A stretch of 42,703 bases of DNA. Source: a virus. Shown piece by piece: positions 2,873 to 38,607 of the stretch. A program made the position numbers and the translations under genes. Below the pieces are notes generated by a model. The model had not been told where the DNA came from, searched no databases, and saw only the letters and a list, made by a program, of their open reading frames with translations. The stretch spans positions 1 to 42,703 of the IMG/VR virus record IMGVR_UViG_3300020171_000064; one strand, 5' to 3'. Each line of letters opens with the position of its first letter. Within the stretch, counting starts at the first letter, position 1.

Positions 2873-5800
2873 ATGGCAATTGGAAACGTTCTAGGCGAGC
2901 TTGTTGTCAAAATTGGCGCAGATGTAGCAGATCTTCAGAAAGGCTTGGGCGAAGCCGAAAAGAGTGGTGAGGGATTCGCTGCAGGCTTTGAGAAGCACCG
3001 CAAGACAATTGGCATTGCCATGACAGCGATAGGCACTGCCATTGTCGGCACCGCTGTTTTGTCTATTAAAGCCTATTCTGACATGGGCGATGAAATTCAG
3101 AAGATGGCTATGAAGACAGGATTCTCCACGGAAGCCTTGTCTGAGTGGAGGCACATGGCCGAATTGGGAGGAACATCCCTGGGGACTGTGGAAAAGGCCA
3201 TTAAAATAATGGCGAACACGCTAGAAGATGCCACTGATGAATCCTTAAAAGCTAGTATTGAAGCATTAAAGGGGGAAACTGGAGCTGCTAGCAAATTAAC
3301 TGAGGCTAATGAAAAGTTAAATAAGGCAGTTGAAGCGTTAACAAACCGCAAAGCCGAATTAAATAAACAAATCGAATCAACATCAGCCAAATTGGCCCTG
3401 GCAAACCAAAAGTGGGAAGAAACCACCAGAGCAGCGGAGAAAGCGGGCAAAGCCCTCCCCGAAAGTGCTCTTATGCAGCACAAAATAACTATTTCAGAAT
3501 TAAAGGATAAATTAAGCGATTTAGGAACAGAATATGATGGCATAGATACTAAAATTGAAGGTACTAAAGCACAAATAAAAGACGCTAGTGCTCAAATTGA
3601 AGCGGGTGTTCCCTCATTAGGGATATACGCTTTAGCGTTCCAAAAATTAGGTATCACCCTTGAGGAGTTAAAAGGCAAAACGCCTGAAGAAACCTTTAAT
3701 ATTCTTACTCAGGCTGTAGCTAAGATAGAAGACCCGTTGCAACGGTCAGCCTTAGCAATGGATATATTTGGTAAATCAGGGACTGAGTTATTACCCATTT
3801 TGGCTGAGGGAGTTGAGGGTATGGCAGCCCAAAGGCAAGAGGCTCACGATTTGGGGGTAGTTTTTGACCAAGAGGCTGCTGATAAGGCAGCCAAGTTCAA
3901 TGATGCCAATACAAAGCTTCAGACTAGTTTAATGGGTATCAAGATGATAATAGCGGATAAATTGATACCAGTTCTTATGCCTCTGATTGATGGGATAACC
4001 AGCGTGGTTAAGAAGGTCGGCGATTGGATGAATGCACATCCCGAACTCACAAAGGTAATCTTGATTGTCGTAGGAGCAATAGGTGGCTTAATGTTAGTTT
4101 TAGGCCCGTTATTGCTTATATTGCCAGGGTTAATAACGTTATTACCATTTTTAGGGGTGGCTTTTAGTGCCGCCTTGGGTCCAATAGGACTGATTATACT
4201 GGCCATAATGGCCATCATAGCCATAGTGATTTTAGTAAAGAAACACTGGACGGAGATTAAGGCATTTGCCATAAAGATTTGGAACGCGATTGCAGGGTTC
4301 TTTAAAAAAGTGGGCGAGACGATTAAGAAAATCTTTCTCAATATGACACCAATAGGCATAATAATAGGTCACTGGGAAGAGATTGTAGACTTTGTCAAAG
4401 GCGTCCCTGACAAAATTAAGGGGTTCTTTACTGGCATCGGGGATAAAATAGGCGGATTCTTTAGTGGCCTAAAGGACAAAGTATCTCGCCATTTCGATGA
4501 GACGACTGCAGCGGTTCAAGGCGTGCCTAGCAGGATTGCTGGGTTCTTCAGCGGTATAAATGAAAAAATCTCTCCCCATTTTGAGGGCGCCAGCACGGCG
4601 ATTGTAGGTATACTAGATAAACTAGGTGTTGATACTGAAGGGATTTTAATCGCCATGAAAGCCAAATACGATGAATATGGCGGAGGCATCAAGGGCACTT
4701 TCATGATGTATTTCGAAGGTATTAAGACAGCCTTGGTAGGTACTGATGGGAAATCAGGCATATTGGGAAAGTTGGGCATTGATACTGGAGCGATTTTAGC
4801 CACTATGAAGACTACTTTTGAGACTGAGGGCGGAGGGATTAAAGGTGCTTTTCTAGCGGCTTTATCAGGCATTGGTACAGTTCTAGGCCAGTTAGGTATT
4901 GATATTCAACCTCTTAAAGATGCTTGGAATTGGTTAAAAACCAATGCTAGTGTGGTTTTTGATGCGACCAAGACTGCCCTATTTGATACGGTAAAGAATG
5001 CTATTGATGCCCTAAAATCTGCCTGGGAATGGATAAAGAGTAACCTAAGCCAGACCCTAAACTTAGCAAAGTCAGCAGTTTTTGATACTGTGATGGTTGC
5101 TGTGGATGCTGTGAGGGCAGCATGGACTTGGGTAAAGGATAACTTTACACAAACTTTAAGTTTAGCCAAGACGACACTCTTTGATACCGTGCAAACGGCC
5201 ATAAACGCCGTGAGAACGGCATGGGAATGGTTGAAAACTAATTTTAGTGTAGCTTTTGATTTAGTTAAATCAACCGCCTTTGATACGGTTAAAACCATCG
5301 TGGACGCCCTAAAAACAGCGTGGGAGTGGGTTAAGGCAAATGCTTCAGCCACTTTTGATTTAGTTAAGACGGCGGTCTTTGACACCGTGAAAACTGCTGT
5401 AGACGCTGTTAAAACCGCTTGGGAATGGATAAAAGGTAATTTAAGTCAGACTTTAGGTTTAGCAAAATCAGCAATCTTTGATACGGTAACAACTGCCGTA
5501 GACGCCCTGAAGACTGCCTGGACTTGGGTTAAGGATAACCTATTGCAAACTCTGAGTTTAGCTAAATCAACCGCTTTTGATACCGTTAAAACCATCGTGG
5601 ACGCCCTAAAGGTGGCTTGGGAATGGATAAAGAGTAACCTAACTCAGACCCTAGACTTAGCTAAATCCACTGCTTTTGCCACGGTAAGTAGTGCTGTTGA
5701 TACCCTTAAATCAGCTTGGGACTGGGTTAAAACCAATCTTAAACAAACATTAGACTTAGGCAAAACTGCCTTATTTGATACTGTAACAACCGTCGTAGAT

Positions 5801-6979
5801 GCACTGAAGGTGGCGTGGGGATGGTTCTCCGACAAACTAAAATGGACGCTGGACTTGGCCAAATCAACCGCCTTTGATACTGTAAAGACGGTCGTAGATG
5901 CGGTGAAAGAAGCATGGAGTTGGTTCTCAGACAAACTAAAATGGACACTAGATTTAGGTAAGACAGCCCTATTCGATACGATAAGCACTGCAGTGGACAC
6001 CGTGAAGTTGGCTTGGAGTTGGTTCTCCGACAAGCTGAAGTGGACGCTAGACTTAGGCAAATCTGCCCTATTTGATACCATTAGTACAATGGTAGATGCC
6101 TTGAAGACGGCTTGGGGTTGGTTTTCAGATAAACTAAAGTGGACTTTGGATTTAGCCAAAACACTTACCTTCGATACCGTAAAAACCGTTGTAGATGCTT
6201 TAAAAACAGCATGGGAATGGATAAATACTAATCTAAAAATAACCTTAGACTTAGCTAAAACTACCCTATTTGGTACGGTAAGCACGGCAGTAGATACCTT
6301 AAAAACGGCCTGGGAATGGGTTAGGACAAATAGCTCTGCGACCTTAAGTTTACTTAAAGGAGTATTATTTGATGCTGTGGCAACCGCCGTGCAAGCCGTG
6401 AAAGACGCCTGGGATTGGTTAAGGACATGGGGGCCTGGCTCCGTAACCCTCGATTTAGTCAAAGGTACAGTGTTTGATGCGGCGGTAACTGCCGTGCAAG
6501 CCTTAAAAGATGCTTGGGCATACCTACAAGGCAATTCCTCTCTCACACTCAGTGCTGCTTACGAGTTCGTAAAAGATATAGTCAACCCTGTTCTATATGG
6601 GCTAAATAGTCTCATAACTGGCCTCAATCTCTTCGTAGTTGGTGGCATTAACTGGTTACTGTATTATATAGCTATGACTATTTGGTGGGCTAGTTTAAAA
6701 ACTGTCTCTATTCAACCGACTTATATGACGGAAATCCCATACGTCCCATACCTCGCTAAAGGTGGCATTGTATCTTCCCCGACACTAGCACTGCTAGGTG
6801 AGGCAGGCCCTGAAGCAGTAGTGCCGTTAGGCGTGGGCACAAGAGGAGCTGAAATCACTATAAATTTAACTGGCAATACTTTCCTAGGCAACGAGGCCGA
6901 GGCTAGACGGTTTAGTAGAATGATTATGCAATATATCCGAGAGGAGACAAGAAATCTTTACGGCTCCCCCGCATTTTAA
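2873..6979 (+). CDS. Tape measure protein with a 16-fold 33-residue repeat
   Basis: A 1368-residue protein. The N-terminal 130 residues look like a phage tail tape-measure domain (LGELVVKIGADVADLQKGL, then a hydrophobic helix). Residues 135-245 form a Lys/Glu-rich coiled coil. Residues 390-450 hold several hydrophobic helices (membrane-type). Residues 684 to about 1220 are a tandem 33-residue repeat whose unit runs AW.W, then T.DL.K...FDTV, then VDALK. The C-terminus has the usual GGIV..PTLALLGEAGPEAVVPL ending. The protein sets tail length and is ejected with DNA. At about 1.5 Angstrom per residue it predicts a tail of roughly 200 nm. It is the largest gene of the tail operon after the tail-tip gene. 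Confidence 0.92.
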   Translation: MAIGNVLGELVVKIGADVADLQKGLGEAEKSGEGFAAGFEKHRKTIGIAMTAIGTAIVGTAVLSIKAYSDMGDEIQKMAMKTGFSTEALSEWRHMAELGGTSLGTVEKAIKIMANTLEDATDESLKASIEALKGETGAASKLTEANEKLNKAVEALTNRKAELNKQIESTSAKLALANQKWEETTRAAEKAGKALPESALMQHKITISELKDKLSDLGTEYDGIDTKIEGTKAQIKDASAQIEAGVPSLGIYALAFQKLGITLEELKGKTPEETFNILTQAVAKIEDPLQRSALAMDIFGKSGTELLPILAEGVEGMAAQRQEAHDLGVVFDQEAADKAAKFNDANTKLQTSLMGIKMIIADKLIPVLMPLIDGITSVVKKVGDWMNAHPELTKVILIVVGAIGGLMLVLGPLLLILPGLITLLPFLGVAFSAALGPIGLIILAIMAIIAIVILVKKHWTEIKAFAIKIWNAIAGFFKKVGETIKKIFLNMTPIGIIIGHWEEIVDFVKGVPDKIKGFFTGIGDKIGGFFSGLKDKVSRHFDETTAAVQGVPSRIAGFFSGINEKISPHFEGASTAIVGILDKLGVDTEGILIAMKAKYDEYGGGIKGTFMMYFEGIKTALVGTDGKSGILGKLGIDTGAILATMKTTFETEGGGIKGAFLAALSGIGTVLGQLGIDIQPLKDAWNWLKTNASVVFDATKTALFDTVKNAIDALKSAWEWIKSNLSQTLNLAKSAVFDTVMVAVDAVRAAWTWVKDNFTQTLSLAKTTLFDTVQTAINAVRTAWEWLKTNFSVAFDLVKSTAFDTVKTIVDALKTAWEWVKANASATFDLVKTAVFDTVKTAVDAVKTAWEWIKGNLSQTLGLAKSAIFDTVTTAVDALKTAWTWVKDNLLQTLSLAKSTAFDTVKTIVDALKVAWEWIKSNLTQTLDLAKSTAFATVSSAVDTLKSAWDWVKTNLKQTLDLGKTALFDTVTTVVDALKVAWGWFSDKLKWTLDLAKSTAFDTVKTVVDAVKEAWSWFSDKLKWTLDLGKTALFDTISTAVDTVKLAWSWFSDKLKWTLDLGKSALFDTISTMVDALKTAWGWFSDKLKWTLDLAKTLTFDTVKTVVDALKTAWEWINTNLKITLDLAKTTLFGTVSTAVDTLKTAWEWVRTNSSATLSLLKGVLFDAVATAVQAVKDAWDWLRTWGPGSVTLDLVKGTVFDAAVTAVQALKDAWAYLQGNSSLTLSAAYEFVKDIVNPVLYGLNSLITGLNLFVVGGINWLLYYIAMTIWWASLKTVSIQPTYMTEIPYVPYLAKGGIVSSPTLALLGEAGPEAVVPLGVGTRGAEITINLTGNTFLGNEAEARRFSRMIMQYIREETRNLYGSPAF
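4922..6511 (+). repeat. Coding tandem repeat, 99-bp unit, 16 copies, in the tape measure gene
   Basis: Fifteen units of exactly 33 codons are followed by a sixteenth of 35 codons and a decayed seventeenth. Each starts with an Ala-Trp codon pair. Four neighbouring units (about 5813-6208) carry a variant AW.WFSDKLKWTLDL, which shows local duplication. Protein conservation is clearly higher than DNA conservation; third codon positions differ widely between units. Confidence 0.9.
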
Positions 6980-14393: not shown

Positions 14394-14449
14394 CTTTAAT
14401 TCGCCTTGGAATATTCTTGATAGCGAGGTTTTTATGATAGGAGATAACG

Positions 14450-14659
14450 ATGGGATGCCTCCATTGTGCCGTCAATTTCATTACTTACAACGATTGTGGC
14501 TGGTGCTGGAATCGTGTGGAGGGGGATATTATGTGCCGATGCCTTGATTGCGGATGTTACTGTGAATGCGGCGATAAATATTGCGACTACCATATCTTGG
14601 TTCATATAGCACATGATAATGAGATAGAAAATGAAACCGAGCGATTATCGCCAAGATAA
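14450..14659 (+). CDS. Very cysteine-rich small protein
   Basis: A 69-residue protein with about twelve cysteines in the first 48 residues, in runs such as CLHC, CGWC, CRCLDCGCYCEC and CDYH, followed by an acidic tail. The spacing could hold two or three zinc ions in cross-brace form, or bind another metal. GGAG lies 7 nt upstream of ATG. It is the last gene before the terminator at 14699. No family is recognised. Confidence 0.55.
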   Translation: MGCLHCAVNFITYNDCGWCWNRVEGDIMCRCLDCGCYCECGDKYCDYHILVHIAHDNEIENETERLSPR

Positions 14660-14698
14660 ATAACCTTGGCTTGATAGTTCTAACATTCATATATTAGC

Positions 14699-14730
14699 CC
14701 GGCATTTTGAAAAGAGTGTCGGTTTTTTTT
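14699..14730 (+). terminator. Rho-independent terminator of the tail operon
   Basis: An 8-bp stem (CCGGCATT with AGTGTCGG, two G-U pairs) and an 8-nt loop are followed by eight T. It closes the late tail transcript immediately before a new promoter. Confidence 0.85.
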
Positions 14731-14743
14731 GTTTACGAATGAT

Positions 14744-14772
14744 TTGACAAAAAAATAAAGGCATGTTACAAT
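14744..14772 (+). promoter_or_regulatory. Promoter of the HTH-like gene (leaderless layout)
   Basis: TTGACA 14744-14749, a 17-nt spacer, then TACAAT 14767-14772. ATG follows after 6 nt, so the transcript should begin at or beside the start codon. It starts the second transcription block. Confidence 0.8.
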
Positions 14773-14778
14773 TTAAAC

Positions 14779-15006
14779 ATGGATATAGTAGAAGCTTTGA
14801 AGGAATACCAGCGATGTTTCTCCTGGCGAGATAGTAACGTGGCATCTGTGGTAGGCATTTCAGTTGCACAATGGTCACGCATTAAACACAGGAAGGTTAA
14901 AATTGGAGCTATCCTTACCAAACGAATCACAGAACATCTGCCGATTATGGTAATCTCCCTTAGAGGGATTACCTATGCTATTCTTATGAAAGGAGACACG
15001 CAATGA
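14779..15006 (+). CDS. HTH-like small regulator, leaderless
   Basis: A 75-residue protein. Residues 17-45 read like a helix-turn-helix (RDSNVASVVGISVAQWSRIKH), with the second helix carrying the Gln-Trp-Ser-Arg face usual for a Cro/XRE recognition helix. It is the first gene after the tail terminator, has its own consensus promoter and no ribosome binding site. It could repress or activate the operator-bearing promoter 200 bp downstream. The stop overlaps the next ATG (ATGA). The regulatory role is inferred. Confidence 0.65.
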   Translation: MDIVEALKEYQRCFSWRDSNVASVVGISVAQWSRIKHRKVKIGAILTKRITEHLPIMVISLRGITYAILMKGDTQ

Positions 15007-23492: not shown

Positions 23493-23781
23493 TTTAGAAA
23501 TTAGAGAGGCTTATTTAGATTTAAGGACGGCAATCTTTGAGAGGGAGCGTGCCGATTGGCAGGGGCAGCGTAGTGGGTTCGGTGCCCTTATGGAAGATGA
23601 CATTATACCCTGCAAAAAGGAAATCAAGGAGTTTATCAAATCGGACTGGTTTAGAATCTATGCGAATTCTAGTGAGCCGATAGAGCAGGTGAGGAAAAGG
23701 CACCTTGCGAGCCTAGGGCCATTTCGGAAGAATAAGAAAATGACTGCCAAGCAATTTGACAAATTACAAGGGGTATGTTAA
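23485..23781 (+). CDS. Unknown 98-residue protein
   Basis: It starts at 23485 behind AAGGAG and overlaps the DUF5131 stop, so the two are coupled. Mostly helical and charged (REAYLDLRTAIFERERADW, KEIKEFIKSDWF). No family is recognised. Its last 26 nt contain the promoter of the downstream RNA. Confidence 0.6.
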   Translation: MDSLEIREAYLDLRTAIFERERADWQGQRSGFGALMEDDIIPCKKEIKEFIKSDWFRIYANSSEPIEQVRKRHLASLGPFRKNKKMTAKQFDKLQGVC

Positions 23782-23784
23782 GAT
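23756..23784 (+). promoter_or_regulatory. Promoter for the structured RNA region
   Basis: TTGACA 23756-23761, a 17-nt spacer, then TAAGAT 23779-23784 (4 of 6 matches). It lies at the very end of the upstream gene and points into the non-coding stretch. Predicted transcription start is about 23791. Confidence 0.6.
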
Positions 23785-23790
23785 TTCAAT

Positions 23791-24345
23791 ATAAGCTGTA
23801 CTTTAAAAATTGAATAGTGGCTCGGTGGTGAAAAAGGAGACACACTGCCTCAGGGGAAGTCTGTCAGAGGAAGAAATGGCTGACTGGAATGAGCTTCTCA
23901 TCTGGGTGACAATGGCAACAAAAGCGGAGTTCAGAGCAGCCGATGGTGTTGCTCAAGTCCCAGCCGAGTAGCTTTCCCCGAGGCGATGTTGTAACCCAGG
24001 TGCTTCAACAGCGCCAGTCTTGCCCTGGGGACTGGAGAAACAGGACAAGTGTTGAAAGGGCAGGTATGTTTCTGCTCCGTCCGAGTAAACCTTGGGGAAG
24101 GAAAACTCCCTGAGCCAGAATTCCTGCAAAGGCTGTCAATGGGTGCGGCCAGGCTCAAGGAGAGCCAGCCCCCCATAGGGTGAGACCCCCTATGCAATGG
24201 GTAGCTATAGGATAGTAAGGAATGGCACTATCCTGGCTGGCGAGACTGGGGATGCCCCAACAAGCTCCGTGGTAAGTTGGTAGCAAACGGAGTGGGTGGA
24301 TACCAGCCCTATAAGGGGCATCTCCAGATAATAGAATTAGAAAGG
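23791..24345 (+). ncRNA. Candidate large structured RNA, class not identified
   Basis: About 555 nt without a plausible plus-strand gene and visibly richer in G and C than its neighbours. Helices visible by eye: 12 bp between 23972-23983 and 24090-24101 (two G-U); 7 bp between 24004-24010 and 24050-24056; a 6-bp hairpin 24014-24019/24030-24035; a CATAGGG/CCCTATG hairpin near 24174-24195; a 7-bp hairpin GGATAGT/ACTATCC at 24210-24232; 7 bp between 24164-24170 and 24235-24241; 11 bp between 24248-24258 and 24315-24325 around a CTCCGT/ACGGAG hairpin. A further 11-of-12 pairing (23899-23910 with 23991-24002) would cross the first and form a pseudoknot. Length and ornateness recall phage RNAs such as ROOL or GOLLD, but I cannot assign it to a class. 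Confidence 0.7.
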
Positions 24346-24347
24346 AG
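24248..24347 (+). promoter_or_regulatory. Leader switch element, copy 1 (anti-SD type)
   Basis: The GCATCTCC word (24318-24325) pairs with the upstream strand 24248-24258 over 11 bp, or alternatively its CTCC pairs with the GGAG of the ribosome binding site at 24344-24347. The two pairings exclude each other, so the upstream helix would expose the site and the downstream one would hide it. Controls the MazG-like gene if real. Confidence 0.5.
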
Positions 24348-24352
24348 GAAAA

Positions 24353-24667
24353 ATGAAATACACAGAAGAGGAACAATATGGTGGGAAAATAGAGAGCATG
24401 GATGTTGGTATTGGGGAGTCCCTTGGGTATGAGATATTTTCTGAGGCATTAGGAGCTTCATTAGATTACCAACCATTTAATTCTGCACATGAAGGCATTG
24501 CTATTATATGGGAGGAGTTTCTGGAACTGCAAGAGGAGGTGTTTCAAAAACAATCAATTCGCAGTATCACTAAAATGAGGAAAGAAGCAATTCAACTTGG
24601 GGCAATGGCATTGAGATTTGTTTATGATGTCTGTCAAGATAGAAAGCTTCTAAGGAAGGGGAGATAA
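24353..24667 (+). CDS. MazG-like nucleotide pyrophosphohydrolase family protein (probable)
   Basis: A 104-residue all-helical protein. Residues 45-65 have HEGIAIIWEEFLELQEEV, the E..E-type metal-binding helix of MazG/dUTPase-like proteins, and residues 76-95 have the paired helix RKEAIQLGAMALRFVYD. The likely role is hydrolysis of NTPs or dNTPs. AAGGAGG precedes ATG, just downstream of the structured RNA. The second acidic motif is less clear, so catalytic activity is uncertain. Confidence 0.55.
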   Translation: MKYTEEEQYGGKIESMDVGIGESLGYEIFSEALGASLDYQPFNSAHEGIAIIWEEFLELQEEVFQKQSIRSITKMRKEAIQLGAMALRFVYDVCQDRKLLRKGR

Positions 24668-24668
24668 G

Positions 24669-24724
24669 GGGGGTGCTGAGGTTGGGGAATGACCAGCCCA
24701 GCATCTCCAGATAGAAAAGGAGAT
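24669..24724 (+). promoter_or_regulatory. Leader switch element, copy 2 (anti-SD type)
   Basis: Strand 24669-24678 pairs with 24699-24708 over 10 bp (two G-U), enclosing a GGT/ACC hairpin. Alternatively ATCTCC 24703-24708 pairs perfectly with GGAGAT 24719-24724, which is the ribosome binding site of the gene at 24729. Same logic and same core word as copy 1. Confidence 0.55.
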
Positions 24725-24860: not shown

Positions 24861-25079
24861 ATGGATATAAATGAATTACTGGATGCGATAAAAGTGGGAC
24901 TGATAGGTTGTATTGATGGTGGAATAAGGAAACTTGAAACAACAGTCTCTGATGATAAGAGAGTCTTAACTTACTGGGTTGGAGGTGTCCTCCGCATTGA
25001 CATAAAAGGATTAGAAAGGTCCAGTAAGCCAAAAAGGCATCTCCAGATAAAAGGAGGACAAGATGGTATGGCCAGATAA
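24861..25079 (+). CDS. Unknown 72-residue protein
   Basis: It starts behind AAGGAGG. The first 50 residues look like a small alpha/beta protein (ELLDAIKVGLIGCIDGGIRKL, RVLTYWVGGVLRIDI). The last 20 residues are encoded by the third leader element and overlap the next gene, so that part is probably not conserved. Confidence 0.55.
   Translation: MDINELLDAIKVGLIGCIDGGIRKLETTVSDDKRVLTYWVGGVLRIDIKGLERSSKPKRHLQIKGGQDGMAR
25037..25058 (+). promoter_or_regulatory. Leader element copy 3 (GCATCTCCAGATA)
   Basis: The 13-mer at 25037-25049 is identical to those at 24318 and 24701, and again stands just before a GGAGG site (25053-25057). CTCC/GGAG pairing is possible; the upstream G-rich partner is weak here. 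A decayed fourth copy is at about 24836. Confidence 0.5.
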
Positions 25080-27396: not shown

Positions 27397-27975
27397 ATGC
27401 CAGAAATAGGTGAGATTAAAAAAGGACAGGATTTAGGTTTTACCAGATACTATAAATTTATATGGCGTGCTTGTGTAGATTGTGGGAAGGAGCGATGGGT
27501 TAGATTGAAGAGAGGGCAACCTAAAAATAGATATTGCCTTTCTTGTGCCCACAAGGGAAACTCAGGCGGGAAAGGATCAAGAGGAATGTGGAAGGCTGGT
27601 TGTAAACATAAAATAAAAAATAGTAGCGGGTATATTGAAATTAAACTCCAGCCTAATGACTCATTTTATCCGATGGCTAGTAAAGGGGGTTATATTTTAG
27701 AGCATCGTTTAGTTGTGGCAAAGAGACTTGGAAGATGTCTATTAAAAAGTGAGCATGTCCATCATATTGACGGGATTAAAGACCATAATAAAGATAATAA
27801 TCTTCAGTTACTTAGTCAGGCAGACCATAGTATTAAAATTCAATTATGCCAACATTGCTCACTCAGGCAGGATATACGAATGGTGCAATTACAAAATAAA
27901 ATGTTACTAGAACAAATACGAAACCTAAACTTGAGATTGATGGATGTTGGAATTCTAAAAGGCGTTAAGATATGA
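27397..27975 (+). CDS. HNH endonuclease with shared N-terminal zinc module, copy A
   Basis: A 192-residue protein. Residues 1-52 are a zinc module (MPEIGEIKKGQDLGF, IWRACVDCGKERWV, YCLSC) also found at the start of the genes at 30767 and 34219. Residues 100-145 are an HNH_3-type centre (ILEHRLVVAK, HVHHIDG, DNNLQLLSQADH). The last 45 residues are a coiled coil. It is a likely homing-type nuclease. It ends overlapping the next ATG. Confidence 0.85.
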   Translation: MPEIGEIKKGQDLGFTRYYKFIWRACVDCGKERWVRLKRGQPKNRYCLSCAHKGNSGGKGSRGMWKAGCKHKIKNSSGYIEIKLQPNDSFYPMASKGGYILEHRLVVAKRLGRCLLKSEHVHHIDGIKDHNKDNNLQLLSQADHSIKIQLCQHCSLRQDIRMVQLQNKMLLEQIRNLNLRLMDVGILKGVKI

Positions 27976-30766: not shown

Positions 30767-31342
30767 ATGCCTGAAATAGGTGAGATAAAAAGAGCTAACG
30801 AGATAGGTCATAAAGGCACAAATAATTTTATCTGGCAAGCTTGTGTAGATTGTGGGAAAGAAAGATGGGTCTCATTTCGTAAGGGGAAACCTGTATCTAA
30901 TAGATGTATTTCGTGTGGTCTGAAAGCGAATAATCTCATAGGTGAAAGAAGTAGTAATTGGAAAGGTGGAAGAGAGGTAGACAGAGGATATATCAATGTT
31001 AAGCTTTGTTCTGACGATTTCTTTTTCCCTATGGCTAATTCCAAGGGCTATGTCAGAGAACATCGCTTGGTTTATGCTCAGCATTTGGGAAGATGTCTCC
31101 ACCCGTGGGAAATTGTGCATCATAAGATTGGGAAGTTAAATGAGAAAGGAGAAAAAGACAATAACTTTAGTAATCTAGAACTCACTACTAGAGGGGAACA
31201 CGATAGACTCACGCAAATGGAGCTTAAAATTGATAGGCTGCTCGAAAAACAAAAGGATTTGATGGCACAAATCAAATTGCTACAATGGCACATTCTAGAA
31301 TTACGGGGGAACAAGAATGTTATTGAACAATTGGTTGCTTGA
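30767..31342 (+). CDS. HNH endonuclease with shared N-terminal zinc module, copy B
   Basis: A 191-residue protein. The first 50 residues (MPEIGEIKRANEIGHKGT, IWQACVDCGKERWV, RCISC) are nearly the same as in copy A. An HNH_3-type centre follows (REHRLVYAQHLGRCLHPWEIVHHKIG, then NNFSNLELTTRGEHD), then a coiled-coil end. GAAGGG precedes ATG. Copies A and B are related throughout and probably moved as homing genes. Confidence 0.85.
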   Translation: MPEIGEIKRANEIGHKGTNNFIWQACVDCGKERWVSFRKGKPVSNRCISCGLKANNLIGERSSNWKGGREVDRGYINVKLCSDDFFFPMANSKGYVREHRLVYAQHLGRCLHPWEIVHHKIGKLNEKGEKDNNFSNLELTTRGEHDRLTQMELKIDRLLEKQKDLMAQIKLLQWHILELRGNKNVIEQLVA

Positions 31343-36098: not shown

Positions 36099-36238
36099 TG
36101 GGTGCTAGAACCTGGAAAGAACTTAAGGAATGGGAGAAGGGGGAAAAGGGTAAAAATAAAGGCCTCGACAAAGCCTTCCCTCTCAGTAAAAAAGAGATTA
36201 CAAAATCCTTGGAATCACAGATTGTGACCTTAAACTGA
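36095..36238 (+). CDS. Small basic protein before the terminase
   Basis: A 47-residue, Lys-rich protein (TWKELKEWEKGEKGKNKG, AFPLSKKEITKSLE). It overlaps the preceding stop and the terminase ATG by 4 and 1 nt, so it is tightly coupled to packaging. It may be an accessory to the terminase. Confidence 0.55.
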   Translation: MMGARTWKELKEWEKGEKGKNKGLDKAFPLSKKEITKSLESQIVTLN

Positions 36239-38607
36239 TGGATGAAGTGCAGGGTCTGAGCAGGGAGTCCTTTAGGCGAATTATACAGTGGTGGAGGGAT
36301 GAACCTGTTGTATTTGTGCGTGAGATATTAGGTATAGAGTTATGGAGCAAACAAAAAGAGATAATAGAAGGGATACGGGACAATCCCAGAATAACGGTGA
36401 GGTCATGCTCAGGAGCGGGGAAAACGGTAGCAGCAGCGTGCACGATATTATGGTTCTTGTATTGTTTCAGGCCCGCAACGGTGTTAACAACGGGCAAGAG
36501 TTTTCGCCAGGTTAAGGAACAATTATGGCGGGACATAGGGGCTTACCATAGCAGGGCGAGAATACCTTTAGGCGGGGACATCAACCAGACAAACCTTAAC
36601 ATTTCAGAGGATTGGTTCGCCTTGGGGTTTTCCACCGATGAGCCTGAGCGGATCACGGGATTCCACAACGAAAATGTATTAGTGGTGGTAGACGAAGCCT
36701 GTTTTGACGATAAGACAGAGATATTAACTCAAGAAGGCTGGAAATTCTTTTCGTTACTAAAAGATAACGATAAGGTTTTAACATTGACCAAACGGGGTCA
36801 AGGCGAATTTAAGAAACCTGATAAACTCATATCCCTCTCTTATGAAGGGGAAATGCTTCACCTACAGCACAGAGCTTGTGATATTTGTATTACCCCCAAT
36901 CATAATATGTATTATGGGAGTTCTTGGGGAAAGTGGCAAATTAAAGAGGCAAAAGAGTTAAAGTCTGTTTTTTATTTGAAGCGTAATTTTAAGTGGCGGG
37001 GGAGTACAAGAAAGTCCTTTTTGCTACCTTTTATGAGGTTTTATAGGCAGAGATATAATAGGCGTTATGTAGATATAGGGGATTGGGTAGAATGGTTGGG
37101 CTGGTATTTATCCGAAGGTTCTCGTAATGAATACAAAGTGGTTATCTCCCAAAAGGACAAAGACAGATTAGAGGAAATAAAGAAATTATCAGAGAGGCTG
37201 GATTTTCCATGTAAGATTTATGAAAATGAAGTTCATATTAGCTCACAGCTCTTGGCTAATATAGTGGGGGAATATGGAAATGGGGCTTGTTCAAAATTTG
37301 TTCCTCAATACATAAAAGAATTGCCCCCCAAACATATAAATCGGTTCTTATCTAGCTACCTTAAAGGTGATGGTTATATTAAGCAAGGCAGAGAAATTTA
37401 CTATACATCGTCACCACAAATGGCTGATGATTTACAAGAGCTAATCTTAAAAACTGGAGATTGTTCATCGGTTAGGCTAAGGCACATCAGAGGTCAACGA
37501 AAATGGATAATTGACCATTGGGCTGAAAGTAAATCTGATGGTTATGTTATCAGCCGATATAAACAAGTTAGTTTAATCAAAGTTAGGCCTCGGAATATCA
37601 AAAAGGAATACTATAAAGGGAAAGTCTATTGTGTAGATGTCCCTCCGTCGCATTTGATATTTACCAGAAGAAACGGGCATTGTGTGTGGACTGGCAATAG
37701 TGGATTAAGCGATAATGTTTACGGAGCGATAGAGAATCCTCTATCCGCAGGGAATACTAAATTATTATTGTTGGGCAACCCAACGCAGAGCACGGGGAAG
37801 TTCAAAGACAGTTTTGCAAGCCCTTTGTACAAGAGCTTCCACATATCGGCCTTTGACACTCCCAACCTTTTGGGAGAGGAAGGTTATCCATTCCTGGTGA
37901 ATGCCAAAGCCGTAGAAAACGCCAAAATAGAATGGGGCGTGGACAGCCCGCTTTATGAGGTTTATATCTTAGGCGAGTTTCCTTCTGGGGAGACTGACAG
38001 ACTGATTCCCTTCGGGCTTGCCGAAGCTGCCATAATAGCGGAGATGAAGGAAGAAGGGACTGTCGCTATGGGGGTTGATACCGCACGCTTCGGCGATGAT
38101 GAGAATGTTCTGTATGTCAGGAAAGGAAACAAGGTCGTATATCATAAGGTTTGGACTAAAGCCGATACGGGAACAACGATAAATCAGATTGCGTCCAAGA
38201 TACGAGAATACAAGCCCTCCGTGGTCAACATAGACGAGGGCTACAACCCAGGGGTCATTGACGGACTTGTGGCTCAAAAGTTCAATGTGAACGGAATCAG
38301 TTTTGGCGGGCAAGCGAAAGACCCTAAAACCTTTGCCAACATCAGGGCTGAAATGTGGTGGGAGCTGGCCGAAAGGTTCAAGCGTGGGGAGATTCAAATA
38401 CCGAATGATAAGATTTTATTGAAGCAATTGACGGACATCAAGAAGAAGCCTTTGAACAGGCTCGACCAGATTATTTTAGAGAGCAAGCAGGAAATGAAAC
38501 AGAGGGGATTAAAAAGTCCCGACAGAGCCGACGCACTGGCGTTATGTTTTTATGAATTGCCACGGAAAAGCCAAAGTCCCTTATGGTGGGTAGAATTGGA
38601 GGATTAA
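36238..38607 (+). CDS. terL: Terminase large subunit containing an intein
   Basis: A 789-residue precursor. Exteins: residues 1-154 with Walker A SCSGAGKT at 56-63 and Walker B VLVVVDEA at 147-154, and residues 488-789 with the nuclease acids MGVDTARFG, VNIDEGYN and SPDRADALAL. After removal of residues 155-487 a normal 456-residue terminase remains. It packages DNA with its N-terminal ATPase and cuts with its RNase-H-fold nuclease. The joint falls immediately after Walker B, so the uncut protein should be inactive. Confidence 0.92.
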   Translation: MDEVQGLSRESFRRIIQWWRDEPVVFVREILGIELWSKQKEIIEGIRDNPRITVRSCSGAGKTVAAACTILWFLYCFRPATVLTTGKSFRQVKEQLWRDIGAYHSRARIPLGGDINQTNLNISEDWFALGFSTDEPERITGFHNENVLVVVDEACFDDKTEILTQEGWKFFSLLKDNDKVLTLTKRGQGEFKKPDKLISLSYEGEMLHLQHRACDICITPNHNMYYGSSWGKWQIKEAKELKSVFYLKRNFKWRGSTRKSFLLPFMRFYRQRYNRRYVDIGDWVEWLGWYLSEGSRNEYKVVISQKDKDRLEEIKKLSERLDFPCKIYENEVHISSQLLANIVGEYGNGACSKFVPQYIKELPPKHINRFLSSYLKGDGYIKQGREIYYTSSPQMADDLQELILKTGDCSSVRLRHIRGQRKWIIDHWAESKSDGYVISRYKQVSLIKVRPRNIKKEYYKGKVYCVDVPPSHLIFTRRNGHCVWTGNSGLSDNVYGAIENPLSAGNTKLLLLGNPTQSTGKFKDSFASPLYKSFHISAFDTPNLLGEEGYPFLVNAKAVENAKIEWGVDSPLYEVYILGEFPSGETDRLIPFGLAEAAIIAEMKEEGTVAMGVDTARFGDDENVLYVRKGNKVVYHKVWTKADTGTTINQIASKIREYKPSVVNIDEGYNPGVIDGLVAQKFNVNGISFGGQAKDPKTFANIRAEMWWELAERFKRGEIQIPNDKILLKQLTDIKKKPLNRLDQIILESKQEMKQRGLKSPDRADALALCFYELPRKSQSPLWWVELED
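36700..37698 (+). mobile_element. Intein with LAGLIDADG-type homing endonuclease
   Basis: 333 residues (Cys155 to Asn487 of the precursor). Block A starts CFDDKTEILT, block B has ITPNHNMYY, the two endonuclease motifs are LGWYLSEGS and FLSSYLKGDGY, block F is VYCVDVPPSHLIFTRRNGH, and the end is WTGN followed by Ser488. The penultimate residue is Gly rather than the usual His; such inteins can still splice. The endonuclease acidic residues are kept in the second motif and replaced by Glu in the first, so cleavage may be active. Confidence 0.9.

Follow-up and report, generated by a model that had tools for sequence, protein, structure and literature searches.

Related hairpins before three phage gene starts and a fold-prone non-coding gap: a plausible orphan structured leader

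Cluster K mycobacteriophages carry Start-Associated Sequences (SAS) and extended SAS (ESAS), in which a near-identical short repeat stands just before several start codons (PMC3203893). About half of the SAS copies have an imperfect inverted repeat immediately upstream, and the function of these start-associated repeats has been unproven since 2011 (PMC3203893). Phages also carry large structured RNAs, among them ROOL, which often lies near phage tRNAs (PMC12286853). Here we describe a gap in a 42.7-kb virus record that bears comparison with both. The record has siphovirus-like genes (tape measure, portal and terminase), and no tRNA was found anywhere in the window (the whole 42.7-kb stretch of DNA that was analysed). 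The gap is flanked by an upstream ORF that ends at 23781 and a downstream ORF that starts at 24353, and its G+C content (23782-24345) is 52% vs 43% for the phage. The features discussed below are as follows.

23756-23784, + strand: sigma-70 promoter candidate where the upstream ORF ends (TTGACA-17-TAAGAT, the -10 extended by TG); a consensus match only, 10/12
23782-24345, + strand: non-coding gap rich in structure, a candidate for a leader or an RNA, that holds no long gene-like frame; fold z -3.0 (0/220 shuffles)
23845-23986, + strand: compact 142-nt domain with closing helix 23846-23857/23975-23985; pair probabilities about 0.8-0.99, z -2.67
23876-23971, + strand: possible 31-aa ORF MADWNELLIWVTMATKAEFRAADGVAQVPAE, preceded by a weak AGAGGAAG site (ATG at 23876); gene-like codon score of 0.07, homologue not found
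24152-24235, + strand: three local hairpins (24152-24156/24162-24166, 24174-24180/24188-24194 and 24208-24216/24227-24235)
24246-24327, + strand: element A, a 13-bp helix (24246-24258/24315-24327) that closes two hairpins and ends before the Shine-Dalgarno of ORF 24353; pair probability 0.99
24318-24330, + strand: exact repeat GCATCTCCAGATA, copy A
24343-24348, + strand: Shine-Dalgarno AGGAGG of ORF 24353, read from the sequence
24353-24667, + strand: downstream ORF of 104 aa, perhaps MazG-like from recognised sequence features
24669-24708, + strand: element B, a hairpin (24669-24678/24699-24708) extended by GGTTGG/CCAGCC before the start of the 34-aa ORF 24729; z -5.5
24701-24713, + strand: exact repeat GCATCTCCAGATA, copy B
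24981-25044, + strand: element C, whose arms (24981-24989/25036-25044) fall within the last part of ORF 24861-25079 and before ORF 25063, from an arm-pairing test
25037-25049, + strand: exact repeat GCATCTCCAGATA, copy C

An earlier note on this DNA had claimed that the region holds no credible gene, and this was borne out. Scored against the codon use of the phage's own genes, no 120-nt stretch of 23782-24350 was gene-like except in one short frame of 54 codons (23807-23971), which had a gene-like score over a single scoring window. Searches with all open frames of the gap against PHROGs, Pfam and, by tblastn, phages returned no convincing relative. An intron inserted in a gene was ruled out, as both flanking ORFs look complete and the second has a ribosome site immediately ahead of it. 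For a replication origin, which was also considered, no iterons were found. The promoter reported in the earlier note is present as a sequence, with TG before its second hexamer, and is a candidate by consensus match. It was the sole + strand promoter-like site found in 3 kb; because the scan yielded fewer such sites (3) than shuffled sequences did (5.8), which is to say fewer than by chance, we regard it as a candidate promoter only. No + strand terminator was found between 22500 and 25500, and a typical-looking one (a hairpin followed by a T run) is present elsewhere in the phage, near 14690-14730.

As a whole, the gap folds more stably than chance would predict. Its minimum free energy (564 nt) was -208.6 kcal/mol (z -3.0), a value reached by 0 of 220 dinucleotide shuffles, and a run with 100 shuffles gave z -2.55. 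It ranked third lowest among 67 phage windows of 564 nt (mean z -0.48, sd 1.4; 20 shuffles per window), and one of the two windows below it (at 24151) overlaps the gap. Another strongly folding 564-nt stretch (14401-14964; z -5.2, 20 shuffles) contains the terminator-like hairpin near 14690-14730, where the block of structural genes ends. Over-stability was as marked on the reverse strand of the gap (z -4.0), so folding energy does not tell which strand is in use. The 150-nt windows tiled across the gap folded ordinarily, and ensemble diversity was not unusually low (14 of 60 shuffles were as low). The claim that chance pairing of this density is unlikely did not survive comparison with shuffles. 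Perfect helices of 7-10 bp were as frequent as in shuffles, which led us to reject pairing density as proof of structure, and only long helices (at least 11 bp with G-U allowed; 5 vs 2.05 expected, 1 of 60 shuffles) and near-perfect 12-mers (38 vs 19.8, 2 of 40 shuffles) were enriched. When the gap was divided into sub-domains, the signal fell within 23845-23986 (z -2.67, 0 of 120 shuffles) and 24242-24331 (z -4.47, 0 of 120), while 23986-24120 was at chance (z 0.0) and 24130-24245 was not beyond it (z -1.1); the cuts were picked after inspection of the fold, which makes these z values somewhat flattering.

Within the compact 5' domain, the predicted inner helices are 23891-23899/23966-23974, 23902-23906/23959-23963 and 23914-23920/23947-23953, together with a hairpin at 23858-23866/23877-23885. 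A long-range helix (23818-23825/24110-24117) was predicted with pair probability 0.8. Several helices listed in the earlier note are mutually exclusive. Its 12-bp helix (23972-23983/24090-24101) and its possible pseudoknot of 11 pairs out of 12 (23899-23910/23991-24002) are present in the sequence as written, but both use bases of the 5' domain, compete with the more probable pairings 23846-23857/23975-23985 and 23897-23906/23959-23968, and would displace the domain if they formed. The reported 11-bp helix 24248-24258/24315-24325 is likewise present, but is in fact 13 bp long and is the closing helix of element A.

The 3' arm of this helix belongs to a repeat that the earlier note overlooked and that recurs at two downstream gene starts. 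Exact copies of the 13-mer GCATCTCCAGATA begin at 24318, 24701 and 25037; even when up to 2 mismatches are allowed there is no further copy, and each of the three lies a few bases 5' of AGGAG and a start codon (ORFs 24353, 24729 and 25063, of which 24729 encodes 34 membrane-like residues). For each copy, the best arm partner within 80 nt upstream exceeded that found in shuffled upstream sequence (p 0.0005 for A, 0.027 for B and 0.0045 for C), and among 117 places in the phage that resemble ribosome sites, the upstream 70 nt of element B were the most stable. Each copy has a different 5' arm (GGGGATGCC, GGGGGTGCT and GGAGGTGTC) that nonetheless pairs; the differences are G-U/A-U swaps or, further in, two-sided changes between A and B. 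These pairing-compatible changes may be read as covariation of a kind, among only three paralogous copies of which C is weak. The minimum-energy fold of element C differs from the hairpin of A and B, in that TGTCCTCC pairs with the Shine-Dalgarno GGAGGACA. A and C have 15 nt in common at the repeat, and A and B have ACCAGCCC in common just before it. Exact ribosome-site stretches are also shared between neighbouring starts (16 nt at 24336-24351/24842-24857 and 17 nt at 25050-25066/25327-25343), and local duplication of start regions is therefore likely to be part of the history of this locus. Three copies within 730 nt may be the product of recent local duplication and not a sign of function.

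The earlier note had the region end at the ribosome binding site of a MazG-like gene. The site is there (AGGAGG, listed above), but the gene label draws on recognised sequence features only: no Pfam match of the downstream protein speaks for it, and searches of Pfam and PDB did not confirm MazG. In a model that starts at 24242, with hairpin A formed, this Shine-Dalgarno is almost fully unpaired; with the full leader it is only partly open (0.35-0.95), in a model that is uncertain at such length. The upstream domain could in principle influence how open the site is. In other viral contigs, the leader was absent before six relatives of the downstream ORF, which start directly after another gene, and the leader therefore does not travel with this gene. 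In one of the contigs with such a relative (L004), a reverse transcriptase-like ORF is preceded by an Rfam RT-15 RNA (2014-2207, 153.6 bits).

Searches for relatives of the gap itself gave no homologue. The Rfam check proposed earlier for ROOL, GOLLD and group I and II introns was run and returned none of them even at E = 10. Scans of the whole window at gathering thresholds, and of the region at E up to 10, gave only chance matches such as STnc380 and gyrA. In the all-Rfam scans, no known riboswitch or cis-regulator aptamer was found (best matches at E about 1, far below gathering scores), and the covariance models of ROOL (gathering 99.1 bits), GOLLD (gathering 150 bits), the conserved catalytic core of group I introns (RF00028) and domain V/VI of group II introns (RF00029) had no match at E 10. 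For ROOL it is these scans that carry weight, as a dedicated search in which control genomes gave no signal is weak alone. Of the earlier suggestion of a free RNA or a giant leader, the non-coding character and the folding above chance thus stand, and membership in ROOL, GOLLD or the group I and II introns does not. By blastn, the region and its parts found nothing meaningful among 50,697 phage and 72,556 plasmid records. The RNA was absent from the whole records of relatives identified through the downstream ORF (L001-L006), the portal (L008, L009 and L014-L021) and an ATPase ORF. Patterns over the terminal hairpin, and over the 13-mer plus ribosome site, had no match in IMG/VR viral contigs. 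Two 15-mer patterns hit 50 loci, every one unrelated in context, and an apparent excess of longer matches in the first 15-mer set could not be extended and was due mostly to unrelated reading frames and to repeats within the same contigs.

The nearest portal is 54% identical and lies on a 13-kb contig; every gene found to be shared with that contig belongs to the terminase-portal end of the phage. When genome contigs were searched with the portal for a possible host, the single match, on an Elusimicrobia MAG contig (35% identity), was too weak a basis for naming one. Elsewhere in the record, the tape measure gene (5000-6250) has many direct repeats with in-frame spacing (exact copies of 25-26 nt, spaced by 99 nt and multiples), and the terminase large subunit (36238-38607) has an apparent intein, with split terminase matches and a LAGLIDADG domain at residues 368-423. 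ORFs 27397-27975 and 30767-31342 have exact stretches of 20 and 14 nt in common at the same offset; the former has a weak HNH endonuclease match, and the two may be copies of a duplicated homing endonuclease-like gene.

We conclude that the gap is real non-coding, fold-prone sequence in which the start-associated hairpin module is the best-supported piece and the remainder is an orphan candidate. We tentatively favour a 5' leader that belongs to an early phage operon and acts in cis, with its terminal hairpin among the three start-associated hairpins, as a reading that is possible though somewhat short of probable. Transcription would probably start at the promoter-like site, or read through from upstream, and would run into ORF 24353 without meeting a terminator. 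The leader would comprise the folded 5' domain and the stable end hairpin, one of the three related hairpins before ORFs 24353, 24729 and 25063, and this terminal hairpin would affect use of the ribosome site. The shared 3' arm GGCAUCUCC could pair with its own 5' arm and leave the Shine-Dalgarno open, or alternatively pair through CUCC with the AGGAG just downstream and close it. Such a switch between open and closed states is suggested by the sequence, and in the full-leader model the site is only partly open. The hairpins would thereby set translation, or would be recognised in common by a protein or by a nuclease that processes the RNA.

A cis-acting leader is favoured over a free RNA like ROOL or GOLLD because hairpins with the 13-mer precede three Shine-Dalgarnos and their arms still pair. 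The leader reading gains from the missing + strand terminator and from a 3' hairpin that belongs to a family of three before ribosome sites, and it loses because the six relatives of the downstream gene have no leader. Against it also stand element C, which lies inside coding sequence and has a best fold unlike that of A and B, the equally over-stable reverse strand, the frequency of promoter-like sites by chance and the lack of a homologue for covariation between genomes. That the leader is not tied to the downstream gene would suit a free-standing structured RNA of an undescribed class, transcribed from a promoter of its own and freed by processing near or at the terminal hairpin, as would the promoter-like site, the high G+C for this phage, the folded 142-nt domain and the long-range helix. 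We nevertheless consider such an RNA unlikely: it would have no terminator, no tRNA nearby, no Rfam relative and no homologue in the phage and plasmid records, its middle (23986-24120) folds no better than shuffles, and the 3' element that it shares with two further translation starts points to a cis role.

It is somewhat unlikely that the gap is ordinary G+C-rich intergenic or decayed sequence (for instance remnants of lost genes, or an insertion) that folds well by chance, with only the short start-associated hairpins functional. The chance frequency of 7-10-bp helices, the ordinary 150-nt windows, the unexceptional ensemble diversity, the over-stability of both strands and the fact that no conservation could be shown all agree with this explanation; it is countered by the whole-region z, by a 5' domain that beats 120 of 120 shuffles and by the failure to find a protein family trace in any frame. 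A short protein gene (31-53 aa) with untranslated surroundings is very improbable: the gene-like frame and the weak ribosome site before the ATG at 23876 speak for one, but it would cover under a third of the gap and overlap the folded domain, and no relative was found in PHROGs, in Pfam or by tblastn against phages. Distinctly unlikely, too, is a class of large phage RNAs distinct from ROOL, GOLLD and every Rfam family, in which a 5' domain closed at long range is joined to a 3' hairpin module, copies of which serve as start-associated regulatory elements at other gene starts. We regard the locus as a plausible orphan structured leader whose suggested function is regulatory.

If the leader works as proposed, a phage would be using a single hairpin module repeatedly, at several gene starts close together, and a 460-nt structured extension would have been built or acquired on one such module. 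If the gap instead encodes a free RNA, the small set of large phage RNAs would grow by one. At present it is one orphan sequence. An independent start-associated case in an unrelated phage, with a repeat arm that pairs, would make a test of translation control straightforward.

Compared with ROOL and GOLLD (RF03087 and RF02032; PMC12286853), the gap is similar in being several hundred nucleotides long, intergenic, phage-borne and rich in predicted helices. It differs in having no model match at E 10, no nearby tRNA, no terminator and a junction with a downstream gene, and its structure has no covariation support. It resembles translational riboswitch-type and other long mRNA leaders in that structured non-coding sequence runs right up to a Shine-Dalgarno and CUCC may alternatively pair with AGGAG; here, in contrast, Rfam gives no match to a known aptamer, there is no ligand, and the leader is not conserved together with the gene that follows. 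The closest likeness in arrangement is to SAS/ESAS. The cluster K SAS, GGGATAGGAGCCC, includes the ribosome site, whereas GCATCTCCAGATA precedes the site and is the 3' arm of an inverted repeat. Here there are three copies only, within 730 nt and unrelated in sequence to the SAS, and one of them has the 460-nt structured extension. As in cluster K, exact copies of a short repeat (three of GCATCTCCAGATA) each stand before AGGAG and a start codon, and an inverted repeat is linked to them, strongly for A and B and more weakly for C. The repeat family is not a member of SAS/ESAS but, judged from these sequences, would work like them.
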